From Devosia sp. 66-22 (GTDB taxonomy: Bacteria; Pseudomonadota; Alphaproteobacteria; Rhizobiales; Devosiaceae): a stretch of DNA of 64,000 nt. The notes under the pieces are model-generated. The model saw nothing but the letters and a program-made list of their open reading frames with translations. It had not been told where the DNA came from and ran no database searches. Position numbers and translations under genes: made by a program. Below are positions 2,190 through 31,670 of this stretch, in pieces; position 1 is the stretch's first letter; each line of letters opens with the position of its first letter. The stretch covers positions 62,001-126,000 of the forward strand of contig MKUZ01000009.1 of assembly GCA_001899065.1 (NCBI GenBank). Direction: 5' to 3'.

Positions 2190-2200
2190 AGGAAAATGAA

Positions 2201-2236
2201 AGGCCCGGACCAGGAGGTGGAACTCCGGCCGGGCCT
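2201..2236 (+). terminator. Hairpin downstream of lolD
   Basis: A perfect 8-bp stem, AGGCCCGG at 2201-2208 and CCGGGCCT at 2229-2236, encloses a 20-base loop 11 bases after the lolD stop. No T-run follows, so it may be a weak or Rho-assisted terminator or simply a 3' end stabiliser. It also lies past the end of the convergent GNAT gene. Confidence 0.5.
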
Positions 2237-2309
2237 AAGCCAACCGGGCGGCGAAGCCCCGTCGGCGGCGGTGCGATAGCACGACTGATTGCGTGCGGCT
2301 ACCACTTCC

Positions 2310-2761
2310 TCAGCCCTCGAGCGACCGTTCCATCTGGATGCAGTCGGCAGCGATACCGCTCAGTTCCTCGCTATCCCATTCGCGGCGGTGCCAGCCTGTC
2401 GCCTCGTAGAAGCCGACGGCTTCGGGCGCGGCGTTGACACGAAGCAGGGTGACACCGCGGCGGCGCGCTTCGCGATCGACGAGCCGGCTCATCTGGCGGC
2501 CATGGCCTTGCCGCTGCAGGTCGGGCGCGATGGCGACGAGGCGGACGATGGCGACACTGCCCTCGATGTCGAGACGGGTGATGCCGGCCGGCCGGCCGCC
2601 AACACGGAGCAGCAATGGCAGGGGTGGCGGTCGTCGGGATGGTTTTCATCATAGACGATGCCCTGCTTGCGGAAGGGCGCGAACAGCACGTCGCGGCGCA
2701 GGCGGTGCATTTCCCGCCAGTCGTCCGGCGTCGCGACCTGCCTCAGCTCGTAGATCGTCAT
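2310..2761 (-). pseudogene. GNAT family N-acetyltransferase, broken by a one-base frameshift
   Basis: Two halves of one GNAT protein lie in different frames. The N-terminal half starts at ATG 2761 (MTIYELRQVATPDDWREMHR..., then GIVYDENHPDD) and runs into the wrong frame near 2615. The C-terminal half resumes there with LLLRVGGRPAGITRLD, the acetyl-CoA loop RQGHGRQM and FYEATGWHRREW, ending at 2310. The span of 452 bases is one short of a multiple of three. One extra T in the CATTG stretch at about 2613-2617 would restore HLLLRV and a protein of about 150 residues, the usual family length. It is either a recent pseudogene or a sequencing error. The start overlaps the stop of the upstream PEP mutase family gene as ATGA, so the two were built as an operon. 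Confidence 0.8.
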
Positions 2762-3588
2762 TGCTGCTCCCGGAGAATGGCCGAGACCTGCGCGGTGGTC
2801 ATGATGCCGTCGACATAGGTGAAGGTGCCGGCGTCGCGGACTTCGAGCGCGGCGTTGCGCAGGCCGGTGAGGGCCGCGCGCACGAAGGAGCCGCCGGCTG
2901 AAACGCGGCGGACGCCCGCTCCTTCGAGCTCGGCGAGCGTGAACGTGCCGCCCTTGAAGCCCTGGACGACATTGACTGGCTTGCCGACCTCGCGGCACAC
3001 GGTGGCGATGGCGTCGAGGCCGGGCAGGCCGGGCGCAAAAAGCACGTCGGCGCCGGCCGCCTCGAAGGCCTGGAGGCGCCGGAGCGTGTCGTCGAAGTCG
3101 GCGCGGCCATGCAGGTAGTTCTCGGCACGAGCGACGAAGACGAAGTCGGTGCCCAGCTTGCGGGACGCCTCGGCGGCGGCGTGGACGCGCTCGACAGCGA
3201 GGGTGAAGTCGTAGATGGGGTTTTGCGGGTCGCCGGTGGCGTCCTCGATGGAGCCGCCGACAAGTCCGGCCGCGTGGGCCTGGCGAATGGCCTCGGCGGC
3301 GTCCTCGGGGGAGGGGCCGAAGCCGTTCTCGAGGTCACCGGCAACGGGCAGCGAGGTCGCGCCCGCGACGAGGCGCGCATTGGCGATGGTTTCATCGCGC
3401 GAGACGAGCCCTTCGCCATCGACGCGGCCGAGCTGGAACGCCGTTCCGGCACTGGTGGTGGTGAGCGCCTCAAAGCCGAGCGAGGCGAGGATCTTGGCGC
3501 TTGCCCCGTCCCAGGGATTGGGGATCACAAACAGCTTGCTGCGGTCGTGCAGGGCGCGGAAGGCGCGGGCTTTGTCGGCCTGGGTCAT
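2758..3588 (-). CDS. Isocitrate lyase/phosphoenolpyruvate mutase family protein
   Basis: This 276-residue protein belongs to the (beta/alpha)8-barrel ICL/PEP mutase family, which cleaves or rearranges C-C or C-P bonds in small keto or hydroxy acids with Mg2+. Visible family motifs are VIPNPWDGASAKILASLGF, a TTSAG loop, DLENGFG (metal and substrate region), GGSIED and VARAENY. The KKCGH motif of true isocitrate lyases is absent, so a PEP mutase, oxaloacetate decarboxylase or methylisocitrate lyase-like reaction is more likely; the substrate is not identifiable. Start ATG 3588 is chosen for its GGAGGA box six bases upstream; an upstream extension to 3750 exists but lacks family character. The stop overlaps the GNAT start by four bases. 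Confidence 0.85.
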   Translation of the reverse strand: MTQADKARAFRALHDRSKLFVIPNPWDGASAKILASLGFEALTTTSAGTAFQLGRVDGEGLVSRDETIANARLVAGATSLPVAGDLENGFGPSPEDAAEAIRQAHAAGLVGGSIEDATGDPQNPIYDFTLAVERVHAAAEASRKLGTDFVFVARAENYLHGRADFDDTLRRLQAFEAAGADVLFAPGLPGLDAIATVCREVGKPVNVVQGFKGGTFTLAELEGAGVRRVSAGGSFVRAALTGLRNAALEVRDAGTFTYVDGIMTTAQVSAILREQQ

Positions 3589-3698
3589 CGATTCCTCCAT
3601 CGTTATCTGCGGCATAGCACAGGACGAGCGCGTGTGCCGGGCCGCCCTCGGGGCTCCCGGGTTTGGGGATGCTCCTCGCCCATCCGGGCAAGGGAGCG

Positions 3699-3764
3699 GC
3701 GAGGCGGGACCGTTGGTCCAGCCGGTTAGTCCGGCGAAGTAAGGGACCATTGGTCCCGCCTCGC
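3699..3764. repeat. Long imperfect inverted repeat with internal palindromes
   Basis: The arms at 3699-3719 and 3744-3764 pair over 21 positions, with 19 Watson-Crick pairs, one G-T pair and one mismatch. Each arm also contains its own palindrome (GGACCGTTGGTCC and GGACCATTGGTCC). The loop carries a further GCCGG-TTAGT-CCGGC hairpin at 3721-3735. Such nesting is typical of mobile palindromic elements or of a transcription end structure. No transposase or target duplication is visible. Confidence 0.6.
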
Positions 3765-3786
3765 GATCCGGGGCTTAGGTGATCCA

Positions 3787-3943
3787 CTGCCGGTCCCGGC
3801 CAACTTGACCGCGACGCGCGACGCCTGTCGGGAGGAACAGCGGGTGACGACGCACCCCCTCCTCCAGTCCGGAGAGCCTGTCGTGGCTCGCCGGCGGCGC
3901 CGGACCCCGGGTGCAGGATAGACTCACCCGCGGGCACCGGCAG
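3787..3943. ncRNA. Possible structured RNA, multi-branched fold, strand uncertain
   Basis: The ends pair as CTGCCGGT (3787-3794) with ACCGGCAG (3936-3943). Read on the minus strand, the enclosed sequence can form several nested helices: GGGTG with CACCC, a GTCCGG/CCGGAC helix enclosing a GAGCC/GGCTC hairpin, and GGAGGA with TCCTCC enclosing a second GGGTG/CACCC hairpin. A -10-like TATGAT on the minus strand lies upstream at about 4038-4043, without a good -35. It does not match RNase P RNA, tmRNA, 6S, SRP RNA or the common riboswitches as far as I can tell by eye. High GC makes chance stems easy, so confidence is low. Confidence 0.3.
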
Positions 3944-4154
3944 CGACCGCCTGATGTGGAACGACTCCCACACCACCCGGCCTCGCGCCGCAGATCACTC
4001 GTCATGATCCCGCTCTCTGCGGTGCGATGGGGAGATCATACCATCGCTGGAAGTCACGGGGATAAGTGGGAGAAATAAGTCCGGAGAGGCCAGGGTTCTC
4101 AGGGCGTTGCGGGGACAATTTTCGGTCACTTGCGGTCGGTTTCCGTCACCGATT

Positions 4155-4254
4155 GGCATCCCCGCGAAGGCTTGGGGGCCAGTTGTCCGCTTGTGCCAGC
4201 GCTCAGGAGGTCGGTGGGGGATGAGAGTTGGGTCCCCGCCTTCGCGGGGATGAC
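4155..4254. repeat. Inverted pair of REP-like units (GTCATCCCCGCGAA type)
   Basis: A degenerate plus-orientation unit (GGCATCCCCGCGAAGG..., 4155-4180) is followed by a minus-orientation unit (GTCCCCGC-CTTC-GCGGGGATGAC, 4232-4254). The second forms a TCCCCGC/GCGGGGA hairpin with a CTTC loop. The same family, again as an inverted pair, occurs upstream of trpG at 36301-36380, so it is a dispersed genomic repeat of the REP/BIME kind. Confidence 0.7.
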
Positions 4255-4370
4255 ATCACGGGTGGGGGGCTCCTGCGCGGTTGGTGGGGGCTTGGGGCTG
4301 AATCTGCCCCCTCGAACCAGGTCTGTCCTTGCCAGTCCCCGCCGCACTGGCACTTCCGGCGCAGAGCCGA

Positions 4371-4521
4371 GCCCCCACCCACCGGCTTCGCCGGTCCCCC
4401 CTCCCCGATGGGAGGGAGGGGCTCTGGGGCGCTATCGAGCCTCTGAACTTCGATGCGGAGCCACGGAGCCCATCCCTTCCCTCCGGGGAGGGGGGACCAT
4501 GCGGAGCATGGTGGGTGGGGC
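4371..4521. repeat. Inverted pair of C/G-rich intergenic repeat units
   Basis: The unit at 4371-4406 reads CCCCCACCCACC, a small hairpin (GGCTTCGCC), then GGTCCCCCCTCCCC. The unit at 4485-4521 is the same design in reverse: GGGGAGGGGGGACC, a CATGCGGAGCATG hairpin, then GGTGGGTGGGGC. The inner hairpins differ in sequence but keep their pairing, which suggests selection for structure. Related C-rich palindromic sequence is found at 29375-29397. This is a dispersed repeat family with no coding capacity. Confidence 0.65.
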
Positions 4522-4635
4522 TTGGGCTGGCGCTAACTGCCGATGTGTCGTGCCTGTGTGAAGGAGCGGGGAAGGCGGGGATGGGGGCGTTGGCGTTAAC
4601 GCCTGATTCACGGTTACACGGTTGTTGCTGGACGA

Positions 4636-4660
4636 GAACAAATACCGAACATATAAGAAC
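4636..4660 (+). promoter_or_regulatory. LexA (SOS) box upstream of the micropeptide
   Basis: GAAC at 4636-4639, seven bases, and GAAC at 4647-4650 give the alphaproteobacterial LexA box GAAC-N7-GAAC. A third GAAC follows at 4657-4660 after six bases. The same GAAC-N7-GAAC form occurs in front of lexA in this window (31630-31644). The box lies 35 bases upstream of the micropeptide start, overlapping a -10-like CATATA/TATAAG at 4650-4657 and downstream of a -35-like TTGCTG (4625-4630), where LexA would block RNA polymerase. Confidence 0.75.
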
Positions 4661-4684
4661 ACAACGGCAACAACGGAGGTCGAC

Positions 4685-4786
4685 ATGCTGAGTTTCGTGA
4701 AAGACGCGATGGCGATGGTGGTGCTGATCGGGTTTACCGGCGGGGTGCTCACCTGGATGGATATGGCCAGCCGACTCGTGGTCTGA
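4685..4786 (+). CDS. SOS-controlled single-span membrane micropeptide (33 aa)
   Basis: This short gene encodes 33 residues beginning MLSFVKDAMAMVVLIG and ending MASRLVV. About residues 8-25 are hydrophobic and could form one membrane span. Start ATG 4685 is preceded by a strong GGAGGT at 4675-4680. The LexA box at 4636-4650 sits directly upstream and dnaE starts 59 bases downstream, so both could be induced by DNA damage. Size, membrane span and SOS control resemble the Caulobacter cell-division inhibitor SidA, but this is an analogy of architecture; no sequence homology is claimed and I do not recognise the family. The call as a real gene rests on the combined ribosome site, operator and hydrophobic product. 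Confidence 0.7.
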   Translation: MLSFVKDAMAMVVLIGFTGGVLTWMDMASRLVV

Positions 4787-4845
4787 GCTGTGGATTGAAG
4801 ACGCGTCAGGTGGCCCGGCAGGGGCCACCGGCGTAGGACGATCTA

Positions 4846-7800
4846 ATGGCTGGCCCCGGTTTCATTCACCTGCATATCCACTCGCAGTACTCCCTCCTGG
4901 AGGGAGCGCTGAAACTGGGCACGCTGCTCGACCTGGCCAAGGCCGACAAGCAGCCGGCGCTGGGGATCGCCGACACCAACAATCTGTTCGGCGCGCTCGA
5001 ATTCTCCGAGAAAGCCGCCGGCAAGGGCGTGCAGCCGCTGCTGGGGGCCGAGCTGGCGCTCGATTTCGAGGCGGCGTCGGAACGCATCTACGACCGCAAT
5101 CACGACCGCGGGCAGTTCGGCAAATCGAGCGTCGTGCTGATCGCCGGCAATGAGGCGGGCTACGCCAATCTCAGCCGGCTGGTGAGCCGCGCTTATCTCG
5201 AAGGCGAAGCGGGCCGGGCGGCGGCGCAGCTGGCGTGGCTCGACCACGACAATGTGGCCGGCATCATGTGCCTGTCGGGCGGGCCGGAGGGCGCGATCGA
5301 TCCCTATTTCGCGGCGGGGCTCGACGGGCAGGCGGAAAACCGGCTCGAGGCGCTGCGGCATCTGTTCGGCGACCGGCTCTATATCGAGCTGCAACGGCAT
5401 GGCCGGCAGAACGAGATCGGCAGCGAGGCGCGGCTGATCGACTATGCCTATCGGCGCGGCGTGCCGCTGGTGGCGACGAACGAGCCCTATTTCGCCGGCA
5501 AGGGCGACTACGAGGCGCATGACGCGCTGCTGGCCATCGCGGCGGGCTCGGTGGTGGCGCAGACGGAGCGCCGGAAGCTCACTCCAGAACATCATTTCAA
5601 AACGCGCGCCGAGATGGGCGAGCTGTTCAAGGACCTGCCCGAAGCGCTCGACAATACGGTGGAGATCGCGCAGCGCGTGAGCTACCGGCCGCGCACGCGC
5701 GGACCGATCCTGCCGCGCTTTGCCGCCTCACCCGACCAGACGGCGGAAGAGGGCATGGCGGCGGAGGCGCAGCGGCTGCGGGTGGAAGCGCAGGAGGGGC
5801 TCAAGCGTCGCTTCGACAGTTACGGTATGGCCGAGGGGCACACGGTCGCCGAGTATGAAGAGCGGCTCGAGTTCGAGCTCGGCGTCATCATCAAGATGAA
5901 GTATCCGGGTTACTTCCTGATCGTGGCCGACTTCATCCAGTGGGCCAAGGCGCACGATATTCCGGTGGGGCCGGGGCGCGGCTCGGGCGCCGGCTCGCTG
6001 GTGGCCTATGCGCTCACCATCACCGACCTCGATCCGCTGCGCTACGACCTGCTGTTCGAGCGCTTCCTCAACCCCGACCGCGTGTCGATGCCCGACTTCG
6101 ATATCGACTTCTGCCAGGATCGCCGCGGCGAGGTGATCCACTATGTGCAGGAGAAGTATGGCGACAGCCAGGTGGCGCAGATCATTACCTTCGGGACGCT
6201 GCAGGCCAAGGCCGTGGTGCGCGACGTGGGCCGCGTGCTGCAGATGCCCTATGGGCAAGTCGACCGTATTTCGAAGATGATCCCGGCCAATCCGGCCAAT
6301 CCGGTGACGCTGGCGCAGGCGCTCGACCTCGAGCCGCAGCTCAAGGCGATGCGCGACACCGACGAGCAGGTGGCGACGCTGATCGAGATCGCCCAGAAGC
6401 TCGAGGGGCTTTACCGCCACGCCTCGACGCATGCGGCGGGCATCGTGATCGGCGAGCGGCCGCTCACCGAGCTGGTGCCGATGTACCGAGACCCGCGCTC
6501 GGATATGCCGGTGACGCAGTATTCGCTCAAATGGGTGGAGCCGGCGGGGCTGGTGAAGTTCGACTTCCTCGGCCTCACGACGCTGACGGTGCTGGACCAG
6601 GCGGTCAAGATGATCAACCGCAACGGCACCAAATTCGCGCTGACCGACATTCCCATCGACGATGCGCGCACCTTCGAAAAGCTCACCAAGGGCGACGTCG
6701 TCGGCGTGTTCCAGGTGGAAAGTCCCGGCATGCGGCGGGCGCTGGTCGACATGCGGCCGGACCGGTTCGAGGACCTTATCGCGCTCGTCGCGCTCTATCG
6801 CCCCGGTCCGATGGCGAACATTCCGACCTATTGCGCGCGCAAGCGCGGCGACGAGGAGGTGGAGTACCTGCATCCGCTGCTCAAGCCGATCCTCGAGCCG
6901 ACCTATGGCGTGATCACCTATCAGGAGCAGGTGCAGCAGACGGCCAAGTCGCTGGCCGGCTACACGCTGGCGGAGGCCGACCTGCTGCGCCGCGCCATGG
7001 GCAAGAAGATCAAGGCCGAGATGGACGCGCAGCGCAGCCGCTTCCTCGACGGCGCCGAAAAGCACAGCGGCATCGGCAAGGCGCTCGCCAACACGATCTT
7101 CGATGCCTGCGCCAAGTTCGCCGAATACGGCTTCAACAAGTCGCACTCGGCGCCTTACGCCTACATCACGTACCAGACGGCGTATCTCAAGACGCACTTC
7201 TTCCAGGAGTTCATGGCCGCCTCCATGACCTATGTCATGGCCAATACCGACAAGCTCAACGAGTTCCGCGAAGACGCCAAGAAGCACGGCATCGCGGTGG
7301 TGCCGCCCTCGGTGAACACGTCGGACGCGGTGTTTTCGGCGCGGGACGGCCAGATCTTCTACGCCATCGGCGCCATCAAGGGCGTGGGGCAGGCGGTGGC
7401 CGAGCACATCGTCGAGGCGCGGGGCGGCAGGCCGTTCAAGGACCTCGCCGATTTCGCGGCGCGGGTGGACAACCGCATCATCAACAAGCGGACGCTCGAG
7501 ACGCTGGTCAATGCCGGTGCGTTCGACTGCCTGGTGTCTAAGCGCGAGCAGGCGTTCCTCGCCATCGATGACGTGGTGGGACAGTCGCAGAGACTCAACG
7601 AAGACCGGGCGACGGGGCAGGGCGGCCTGTTCGACGACGGGACGCCCGAGGCGATCCGCCTGACGACGAACTACGAGCCCTGGGGACTGGTCGAAAGGCT
7701 GGACCGCGAACGCGCCGCGATCGGCTTTCACGTCTCGGCGCACCCGCTGGACGAGTATGCCGGCCTGTTCGGCGCGATGGGCGTGTGGACATATCAGCAG

Positions 7801-8310
7801 CTCGAGACCGAGGTTCGCGATCGCGGCGGCAGCGCCCGCAAGCTGGCGGGCACCGTCACCAGCCGGTCCGACCGGCGTACCAAGAAGGGCACGCCGATGA
7901 TGGTGGTGAAACTGTCGGACCAGACCGGCAGCTACGAGGTCATCGGCTTTTCCGAGGAGGTGCAGGCCTATGGCGCGATGCTGCAGCCGGGCGCCAATGT
8001 GATCATCGGCGTCAATGCCGACGAGCGGGACGACGGGATCAGCATCAGGGTCCAGTCGGTTCAGCCGCTCGACGAGGCTGCCCAGAAGGTCGGGAAATTC
8101 CTCGAGATCGAAGCCGACGACATCAAGTGCCTCGAACCGATCCACAAGCAGCTTAAGCCGGGCGGCAATGGCCGGATCAAGTTCGTGGTGGCGCGCGAGC
8201 AGGGGCGCCGGCTCTACGAGATCGACATCGGCGCGGGCTGGCAGATCAACCCGGCGCTGGCGGGAGCGATCAAGTCGTTCGACGGCGTGGTGGATGTGCG
8301 GCTGAACTAG
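4846..8310 (+). CDS. dnaE: DNA polymerase III alpha subunit (replicative, DnaE1 type)
   Basis: This 1154-residue polymerase is the catalytic subunit of the replisome. An N-terminal PHP domain starts with FIHLHIHSQYSLLEGA. The C-family polymerase core carries PGRGSGAGSL and PDFDIDFCQDRR, with the catalytic aspartates. A helix-hairpin-helix region (GAIKGVGQAVAEHI, about residue 845) follows, then an OB-fold (about 1000-1070). Length and the well-kept PHP domain fit replicative DnaE1 rather than the shorter error-prone DnaE2, which usually travels with imuA-imuB; neither is seen. Start ATG 4846 has only a weak ribosome site. The LexA box and micropeptide lie just upstream, an unusual setting for a replicative polymerase. 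Confidence 0.96.
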   Translation: MAGPGFIHLHIHSQYSLLEGALKLGTLLDLAKADKQPALGIADTNNLFGALEFSEKAAGKGVQPLLGAELALDFEAASERIYDRNHDRGQFGKSSVVLIAGNEAGYANLSRLVSRAYLEGEAGRAAAQLAWLDHDNVAGIMCLSGGPEGAIDPYFAAGLDGQAENRLEALRHLFGDRLYIELQRHGRQNEIGSEARLIDYAYRRGVPLVATNEPYFAGKGDYEAHDALLAIAAGSVVAQTERRKLTPEHHFKTRAEMGELFKDLPEALDNTVEIAQRVSYRPRTRGPILPRFAASPDQTAEEGMAAEAQRLRVEAQEGLKRRFDSYGMAEGHTVAEYEERLEFELGVIIKMKYPGYFLIVADFIQWAKAHDIPVGPGRGSGAGSLVAYALTITDLDPLRYDLLFERFLNPDRVSMPDFDIDFCQDRRGEVIHYVQEKYGDSQVAQIITFGTLQAKAVVRDVGRVLQMPYGQVDRISKMIPANPANPVTLAQALDLEPQLKAMRDTDEQVATLIEIAQKLEGLYRHASTHAAGIVIGERPLTELVPMYRDPRSDMPVTQYSLKWVEPAGLVKFDFLGLTTLTVLDQAVKMINRNGTKFALTDIPIDDARTFEKLTKGDVVGVFQVESPGMRRALVDMRPDRFEDLIALVALYRPGPMANIPTYCARKRGDEEVEYLHPLLKPILEPTYGVITYQEQVQQTAKSLAGYTLAEADLLRRAMGKKIKAEMDAQRSRFLDGAEKHSGIGKALANTIFDACAKFAEYGFNKSHSAPYAYITYQTAYLKTHFFQEFMAASMTYVMANTDKLNEFREDAKKHGIAVVPPSVNTSDAVFSARDGQIFYAIGAIKGVGQAVAEHIVEARGGRPFKDLADFAARVDNRIINKRTLETLVNAGAFDCLVSKREQAFLAIDDVVGQSQRLNEDRATGQGGLFDDGTPEAIRLTTNYEPWGLVERLDRERAAIGFHVSAHPLDEYAGLFGAMGVWTYQQLETEVRDRGGSARKLAGTVTSRSDRRTKKGTPMMVVKLSDQTGSYEVIGFSEEVQAYGAMLQPGANVIIGVNADERDDGISIRVQSVQPLDEAAQKVGKFLEIEADDIKCLEPIHKQLKPGGNGRIKFVVAREQGRRLYEIDIGAGWQINPALAGAIKSFDGVVDVRLN

Positions 8311-30880: not shown

Positions 30881-31606
30881 TCAGTACTTGCGCAGCAGGC
30901 CCACGAGGCGCCCCTGCACCTTCACCCGGTCGGGCGGGAAGATGCGGGTTTCGTAGGCGGGATTGGCGGCCTCGAGGGCGACCGAATTACCGCGGCGGCG
31001 GAGGCGCTTGAGCGTCGCTTCCTCGTCGTCCACCAAGGCGACGACGATCTCGCCGGTGGCGGCCGTGTCCTGCCGCTTGATGACGACGGTGTCGCCGTCG
31101 AAGATACCGGCCTCGATCATCGAGTCACCGCGCACCTCGAGCGCGAAGTGCTCGCCGCCGCCCAGCATTTCAGGTGGCACGACCACGGTGTGGCTCTGAT
31201 CCTGGATGGCCGAAATCGGGGTACCGGCGGCGATGCGGCCCATGACCGGGATGGCGACGGGACGGCCGGCTTCGGACATGCCCGGCATTTCGGGTGCCGA
31301 CCGGCGCGGCGGGGTCGAGACGCGGCCAAGGCTGCCATCGATGACCGCCGGCTCGAAGCGCGCTTTCTTGCCGCCGAGCGAGGGGTTCATCGAGTCCGGC
31401 AGGCGGACCACTTCGAGCGCCCTCGCCCGATTGGGCAGGCGGCGGATGAAACCGCGTTCTTCCAGCGCCGTGATCAGCCGGTGGATCCCCGATTTGCTGC
31501 GCAGGTCCAGCGCGTCCTTCATCTCGTCGAAGGAGGGAGGAATGCCGCTCTCCTTCATGCGTTCGTGGATGAACATGAGAAGTTCGTGCTGCTTGCGCGT
31601 GAGCAT
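30881..31606 (-). CDS. lexA: SOS repressor LexA
   Basis: This 241-residue repressor turns off DNA-damage genes until RecA filaments trigger its self-cleavage. A winged helix-turn-helix (residues 1-66, [21 protein letters not shown]) is followed by a linker, the cleavage site A127-G128 in GRIAAGTPI, and the Ser-Lys dyad S162 (RGDSM) and K200 (ATLKRL). Start ATG 31606 has AAGGAG eight bases upstream and matches the conserved MLTRKQ N terminus; the open frame extending to 31711 would read through the operators. Two LexA boxes in front indicate self-repression. Confidence 0.96.
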
Positions 31607-31629: not shown

Positions 31630-31670
31630 GAACAAAGGCTGAACGATCTATAGGCGTTCTGGCTATGTTC
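31630..31670 (-). promoter_or_regulatory. Two LexA boxes upstream of lexA
   Basis: The first box is GAAC (31630-31633), seven bases, GAAC (31641-31644). The second is GTTC (31656-31659), seven bases, GTTC (31667-31670), the same motif in the opposite orientation. Both match the alphaproteobacterial LexA consensus and lie 24-64 bases before the lexA start. They anchor the motif used to interpret the box at 4636. Confidence 0.88.

Follow-up and report, generated by a model that had tools for sequence, protein, structure and literature searches.

What does the short open reading frame (ORF) that lies between a LexA-type box and the replicative polymerase gene dnaE of Devosia sp. 66-22 encode, and does it belong to the SOS response? 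The locus is part of a 64,000-nucleotide stretch of contig MKUZ01000009.1, referred to here as the window, the features of which are collected in Table 1. An earlier note on this DNA had described a GAAC-N7-GAAC box, a GGAGGT ribosome site and a 33-codon ORF with a single hydrophobic span shortly before dnaE, and had proposed a SidA-like SOS division inhibitor of unrelated sequence, or a peptide acting on the replisome or the membrane. Reading the window again confirms all of these elements and their spacing to dnaE, together with the two further copies of the same box form in front of lexA, a gene assigned by TIGR00498 whose start was picked by the analyst at MLTRKQ within its ORF.

Table 1. 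Features of the micropeptide-dnaE locus and of the lexA locus, in window coordinates
Feature	Position	Strand	Basis or remark
Candidate -35-like element TGGACG	4629..4634	+	sequence; 17 nt before the -10-like element
LexA-type operator (putative) GAACAAATACCGAAC, GAAC-N7-GAAC	4636..4650	+	between the -35-like and -10-like elements
Candidate -10-like element TATAAG	4652..4657	+	sequence
Third GAAC	4657..4660	+	six bases after the second GAAC
Ribosome-binding site GGAGGT	4675..4680	+	sequence
Micropeptide gene, SidA-type, 33 codons, MLSFVKDAMAMVVLIGFTGGVLTWMDMASRLVV	4685..4786	+	ATG 4685, stop 4784-4786
Gap between micropeptide gene and dnaE, 59 nt	4787..4845	+	GC-rich hairpin, no terminator-like site
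dnaE, DNA polymerase III alpha (DnaE1 type)	4846..8310	+	NCBIfam NF004226, 1413 bits; Pfam
lexA	30881..31606	-	TIGR00498 (NCBIfam), 140 bits
LexA-type operator upstream of lexA	31630..31644	+	motif search
Second LexA-type operator upstream of lexA	31656..31670	-	motif search

The box fills the space between the -35-like and -10-like elements, and the 17 nt that separate these elements are the usual sigma-70 spacing; a strict-consensus promoter scan calls no promoter at this pair. The encoded micropeptide (P0001), of 33 aa with a single hydrophobic stretch, is predicted as one helix over residues 2-32, which is weak evidence because the prediction is made from a single sequence, and it has no Pfam or NCBIfam match. 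Moreover, searches of phage and plasmid collections return no match at E ≤ 1, and the plasmid search also misses the diverged Sinorhizobium meliloti form described below. On the upstream side, lolD and the micropeptide gene are about 2.5 kb apart (window 2190-4684), with repeat-like GC-rich DNA and opposite-strand ORFs that look acetyltransferase-like and lyase-like by eye in this interval, in contrast to a S. meliloti record in which the ABC gene preceding dnaE ends only about 470 nt from it.

One account of the locus is a chance ORF next to a chance box, and the box counts alone do speak for it: the plain GAAC-N7-GAAC pattern has 4 exact matches in the window versus 1.57 expected, a count of 4 is attained in 8 of 100 shuffles, and the box by itself is therefore near chance level within the window and constitutes weak evidence. 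Genome-wide, the plain box has 112 matches versus 46 for the reversed pattern, and a stricter form, GAACAWANNNNGAAC, has 15 versus 1 for its control. The strict box precedes lexA, uvrA, ssb, dinB and an imuA-like gene (ImuA match of 36 bits, E 5e-9); a second PolIII-alpha gene is situated about 4 kb from this imuA-like gene. This gene set, identified for part of the 15 strict boxes and from scanned fragments, so that most scores lie under curated cut-offs, is by its predicted functions an ordinary SOS regulon. Strict LexA-type boxes also occur upstream of cas5d, a type I-C CRISPR gene by TIGR01876, at about 19 nt from its likely start MSYGVRL (L396, G000:C30:9002-9016), which gives a hint of a possible SOS control of the CRISPR operon, and near a PA0069-family radical SAM gene (L390, G000:C17:98523-98537).

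Conservation within the host's own family, the check that the earlier note had suggested, comes out in favour of a gene. Specifically, the micropeptide is matched at E ≤ 1 in 129 of 136 own-family genomes and in 16 of 16 genera, with at least one of the 129 matches looking like chance (G108, inside a 640-aa frame). At the 69 own-family loci read, dnaE is found just downstream in 67, the two exceptions (L013 and L025) being loci where dnaE was not found on the sequence piece examined; an exact box stands within 90 nt at 57 loci, 11 others have a box that deviates by one base, which makes 68 together, and one locus has lost it. The locus without a box (L069, G041:C1:1678600-1679900) carries a dnaE-linked peptide that lacks both the operator and the N-terminus and represents a natural loss case.

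The conservation extends to the whole promoter, as the block T.GACA-N-GAACAAAN4GAAC-NTATAA is nearly constant across the 68 aligned own-family loci. The alignment was placed by score for the two GAAC motifs and ATATAA, and those columns are favoured, whereas the -35 columns are unscored; in the latter, T.GAC shows no variation at its T, A and C, and its G is kept in 65 loci. The -35-like element has at most two mismatches to TTGACA in 68 of 68 loci and the -10-like element at most two to TATAAT in 64 of 68, a third GAAC occupies the matching place in 57 of 68, and purine-rich stretches like GGAGGT are visible by eye, uncounted, in own-family and Caulobacteraceae loci. The SOS control put forward in the earlier note is thus borne out at the level of the DNA by a putative LexA-type operator that sits inside the candidate promoter and is conserved with it.

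The reading frame itself is under constraint. In 62 micropeptide sequences, single-base codon differences counted in frame are silent in 4275 cases and changing in 2838, versus 1763 silent and 5209 changing, and 761 and 6068, in the other two frames; the compared pairs are up to 35% different and are not independent, and the codon pattern is that expected of selection at the amino-acid level on the micropeptide. This result bears on the idea that the ORF is a regulatory upstream ORF that governs dnaE by translation or transcription and whose peptide has no function. Such a role would suit the recurrent place before dnaE and the GC-rich hairpin in the 59-nt gap, yet it is very unlikely in view of the amino-acid-level constraint, of a distance to dnaE that spans about 22 to about 590 nt in the loci examined, and of a fold of positions 4660-4870 that is no better than that of shuffles (z-score -1.0). 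Because the peptide, the box and the promoter block are conserved across the own family, the combination of box and ORF goes beyond chance; with the codon constraint and the box-ORF association found in class regions (see below), the probability of a chance pairing becomes negligible, and the micropeptide ORF is, on this evidence, a real and conserved gene of putative SOS type.

The same data help to place the gene among hydrophobic SOS peptides. The TisB/DinQ class comprises small, single-span products controlled by an SOS operator, and the micropeptide fits this class in size, span and operator. A LexA-controlled hydrophobic toxin of this kind, which would depolarise the membrane, is nevertheless highly improbable, since the gene holds a core chromosomal position conserved throughout the own family and has a strong ribosome site, and an Rfam search of positions 3500-5300, which bears on the antisense RNA partner that such toxins have, returns nothing at the gathering score.

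A look-alike of 34 aa (L067:1129-1233, G000:C23), which matches the micropeptide with 41% identity across 29 residues (E 0.05), follows immediately on a gene of the same genome that is AAA-ATPase-like by eye. It is without a LexA box and was found in none of the 18 other genus genomes searched, and the remaining matches in this search fall at the dnaE-linked peptide.

Beyond the own family, the distribution was followed with a hidden Markov model (HMM) built from 37 family peptides and, separately, with the box. At E ≤ 0.1, the own-family HMM matches 30 of 387 class genomes and 57 of 249 order genomes, and many of these matches are due to chance: dnaE is on the examined piece in 6 of 29 class loci and 16 of 19 order loci beyond the own family. 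An exact GAACN7GAAC stands beside the peptide in 20 of these 22 dnaE-linked loci (all except L136 and L138). Stronger evidence comes from a box-led survey of 129 class dnaE-upstream regions, in which the peptide sequence was not used. Specifically, GAACN7GAAC is present on the dnaE strand in 23 regions, and 21 of the 23 have, 10-90 nt after the box, a short hydrophobic ORF that comes with a ribosome site, compared with 23 of 4163 random anchors in boxless class regions. The box-plus-peptide unit is patchy, since 106 of the 129 regions are without GAACN7GAAC on the dnaE strand. Likewise, among 80 dnaE loci listed by a Caulobacteraceae DnaE query, 21 are boxed in either orientation and 18 of the 21 have a short hydrophobic ORF, including Stappia stellulata, Ancylobacter polymorphus and a Sneathiella MAG; the dnaE-upstream region of Methylobacterium bullatum has neither box nor such an ORF. 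A 28-aa version lies behind a box 150 nt before dnaE in Sinorhizobium meliloti CP090106.1 (labelled pSymB, carries dnaE), and another of 28 aa about 163 nt before dnaE in a Shinella record. Sinorhizobium and Shinella also give the best DnaE matches among the plasmid sequences searched, at 55% identity. The peptides in this position among relatives measure 26-47 aa, and their linkage to dnaE persists across families.

A different arrangement is seen at seven loci, six from the 129 regions of the survey plus one further named locus (L201, L235, L238, L251, L262, L155 and L380): GTTC-N7-GTTC stands about 50-86 nt ahead of dnaE, no peptide unit is found, and in 5 of the 7 a TGAC comes within a few bases after the repeat. 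This arrangement might reflect direct LexA control of dnaE or the site of another factor.

The Caulobacteraceae offer the point of contact with a characterized system. SidA is described in the cited passages as a 29-aa division inhibitor of the inner membrane that is LexA-controlled and acts on FtsW (PMC4211646, PMC12700426), with GTTCN7GTTC given as the Caulobacter LexA consensus (PMC12700426); the allele ftsW(A31K) is known to suppress SidA. As for its position, the passages cited give sidA as CCNA_02004 (PMC11034885), CCNA_02005 as a nucleoside hydrolase (PMC3667746) and lexA as CCNA_01979 (PMC11535069); in the older numbering, dnaE is CC1926 and lexA CC1902 (PMC1839093), and recN is given as CC1983, equal to CCNA_02062. 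The tag offsets from lexA and recN lead to dnaE being expected at CCNA_02003 to 02005, and as 02004 is sidA and 02005 the nucleoside hydrolase, dnaE would be CCNA_02003, beside sidA, if the numbering runs in order. Arithmetic on locus tags thus implies that sidA adjoins dnaE in Caulobacter.

A peptide of the length of SidA is indeed found in that place. The family f56 entered the analysis via the box survey, through a 29-aa peptide beside dnaE (L171), and not via the own-family HMM; by DnaE it is Caulobacteraceae, the nearest sequences among the matches listed being Caulobacter, Phenylobacterium and Brevundimonas at 72-86% identity and the next reaching 60% or less. The L171 peptide is matched at E ≤ 1 in 119 of 149 f56 genomes. 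In the best 30 of these 119 loci, a 29-aa reading is obtained in 29 and the remaining one (L285) contains one, and the peptides are placed about 22-121 nt before dnaE. At the named Caulobacteraceae loci among the matches listed, a peptide of such a kind is present in 8 of 8 and an exact box in 5 of 8.

The claim that the micropeptide would be unrelated in sequence to SidA has to be dropped, as the dnaE-linked place is common to the Caulobacteraceae 29-aa peptides and the own-family HMM recovers these over nearly all shuffles. Specifically, 14 of 14 analyst-chosen Caulobacteraceae peptides score 9.8-20.2 bits, values that 0-5 of 500 shuffles reach, and a one-against-one hhalign comparison of the two groups gives a probability of 91.9% (E 7e-7) over 18 columns of the N-terminal half, to which the similarity is confined. 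The shared core, read by eye, is roughly F-x-[KR]-[DE]-x2-A-[LF]-x-S-[LV]-x2-F. The reverse test with a Caulobacteraceae HMM is weaker than the forward one: 23 of 37 own-family peptides pass, a pass meaning that 5 or fewer of 500 shuffles are as good in both shuffle kinds, and the micropeptide of the window itself scores 6.4 bits, with 19 and 24 of 500 shuffles as good.

Peptides from other groups fill in the series to different degrees. Those of Rhizobiaceae, Stappia and Bauldia, which entered the analysis independently of the HMM, obtain 17-24 bits from the own-family HMM, a level attained by 0 of 500 shuffles, and those of f190, f191, f166, f169 and f171 score 22-33 bits, but were found by the same HMM. 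The peptides of f3, f7, f12, f106, f108, Ancylobacter and Hellea range from 7 to 22 bits, and 0-14 of 500 shuffles do equally well. Several groups that the own-family HMM detects, namely f171, f166, f7, f106 and Bauldia, score at chance-like levels with the Caulobacteraceae HMM. Lastly, the peptides at the dnaE-linked place in f37, f70 and Parvularculaceae are not clearly above shuffles and resemble neither model, and the locus may therefore sometimes carry unrelated peptides.

The gene, its operator and promoter layout, their conservation, the coding constraint, the adjacency to dnaE and the N-terminal similarity to Caulobacteraceae peptides are observed. The reading that we prefer, with a probability of roughly three in four, is that the micropeptide is an orthologue of SidA that has diverged, and that it is a division inhibitor under LexA repression, probably with FtsW/FtsI/FtsN as its target; the SidA-like role raised in the earlier note is thus, judging by sequence, the best reading of the locus. 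In this mechanism, LexA would block the promoter by binding to the direct repeat that separates its -35 and -10 elements, and RecA-triggered cleavage of LexA after DNA damage would open it, as is expected from the known SOS pathway. The single-helix peptide would then be made and presumably placed in the inner membrane, where, by homology with SidA, it may hold the FtsW/FtsI/FtsN complex inactive, and septation would be delayed until repair. Part of the induced transcript may also run on into dnaE, a read-through that is possible because the gap has no terminator-like site, a strict-consensus terminator scan finding none between the two genes. LexA control possibly extends to dnaE in this way; in other families, the distance of up to about 590 nt suggests that dnaE probably has its own promoter.

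A rival reading concerns the target. An SOS-induced membrane micropeptide of common ancestry might have changed its target, for instance to the contact between replisome and membrane, to the proton gradient or to a different protein of division or of the envelope, and the own-family C-terminal half (W.D...RL), which differs from the Caulobacteraceae form, as well as the dnaE linkage kept across families, would agree with such a shift. However, the micropeptide has the features of SidA in its single span, its SOS operator and the N-terminal half that is common to both groups, and the linkage to dnaE is implied for sidA too, whose product acts on FtsW; a changed target is accordingly unlikely, and the action on the replisome envisaged in the earlier note has nothing for it beyond the gene neighbourhood. 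For a diverged SidA orthologue, the restriction of the similarity with the Caulobacteraceae peptides to the N-terminal half predicts that the contact with the divisome lies there.

SidA, the standard SOS division inhibitor of Caulobacter, has FtsW and not FtsZ as its target. Should the series form one family, this checkpoint would be spread over several alphaproteobacterial families and would be no peculiarity of Caulobacter. Genes of this type are so short that they are easily missed: the single annotated record checked, CP090106.1, lists no gene at the 28-aa ORF, although the PLSDB gene tables are incomplete. The recurrent neighbour raises the question of whether an essential polymerase is co-induced in the SOS response. 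A bolder and doubtful extension is that an ancient SOS unit of the alphaproteobacteria joins the SidA-type peptide to the replicative polymerase, in which one LexA-controlled transcript would give a division brake and extra DnaE, the brake lasting as long as replication restart needs the polymerase. The portions of the literature searched hold no description of a SidA-type peptide before dnaE outside Caulobacter, and an earlier report is possible; any novelty may lie in how widely the dnaE-linked series is distributed, the kind of system being already known.

Among the known systems, YneA and SosA of Gram-positive bacteria resemble the micropeptide as SOS-induced division inhibitors, and YneA, in the source passages available, interacts with FtsW as well. 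Both are larger and have extracytoplasmic parts, by which description they are set apart from the micropeptide. DidA (CCNA_03212) is likewise a small inhibitor of division with one span, and DNA damage induces it too; it is described in the cited passages as a 71-aa protein that is SOS-independent, being induced via DriD, and that interacts with FtsN (PMC4211646). The micropeptide, with 33 aa and a LexA-type operator, differs from DidA in size and in its predicted LexA control, and is not assigned to that system. The closest counterpart is SidA, which differs in having 29 aa, and the Caulobacteraceae C-terminal half has an FVWM form in place of the W-x-D-x3-R-L found here. Conversely, the micropeptide shares with SidA the tiny single-span build, here as one predicted helix, the LexA-type operator in the form of a direct repeat, which reads GTTCN7GTTC on the other strand, the place beside dnaE, at 59 nt here and implied by locus tags for sidA, and an N-terminal stretch of 18 residues that can be aligned with the Caulobacteraceae peptides at that place, these rather than the published SidA sequence being the comparator.
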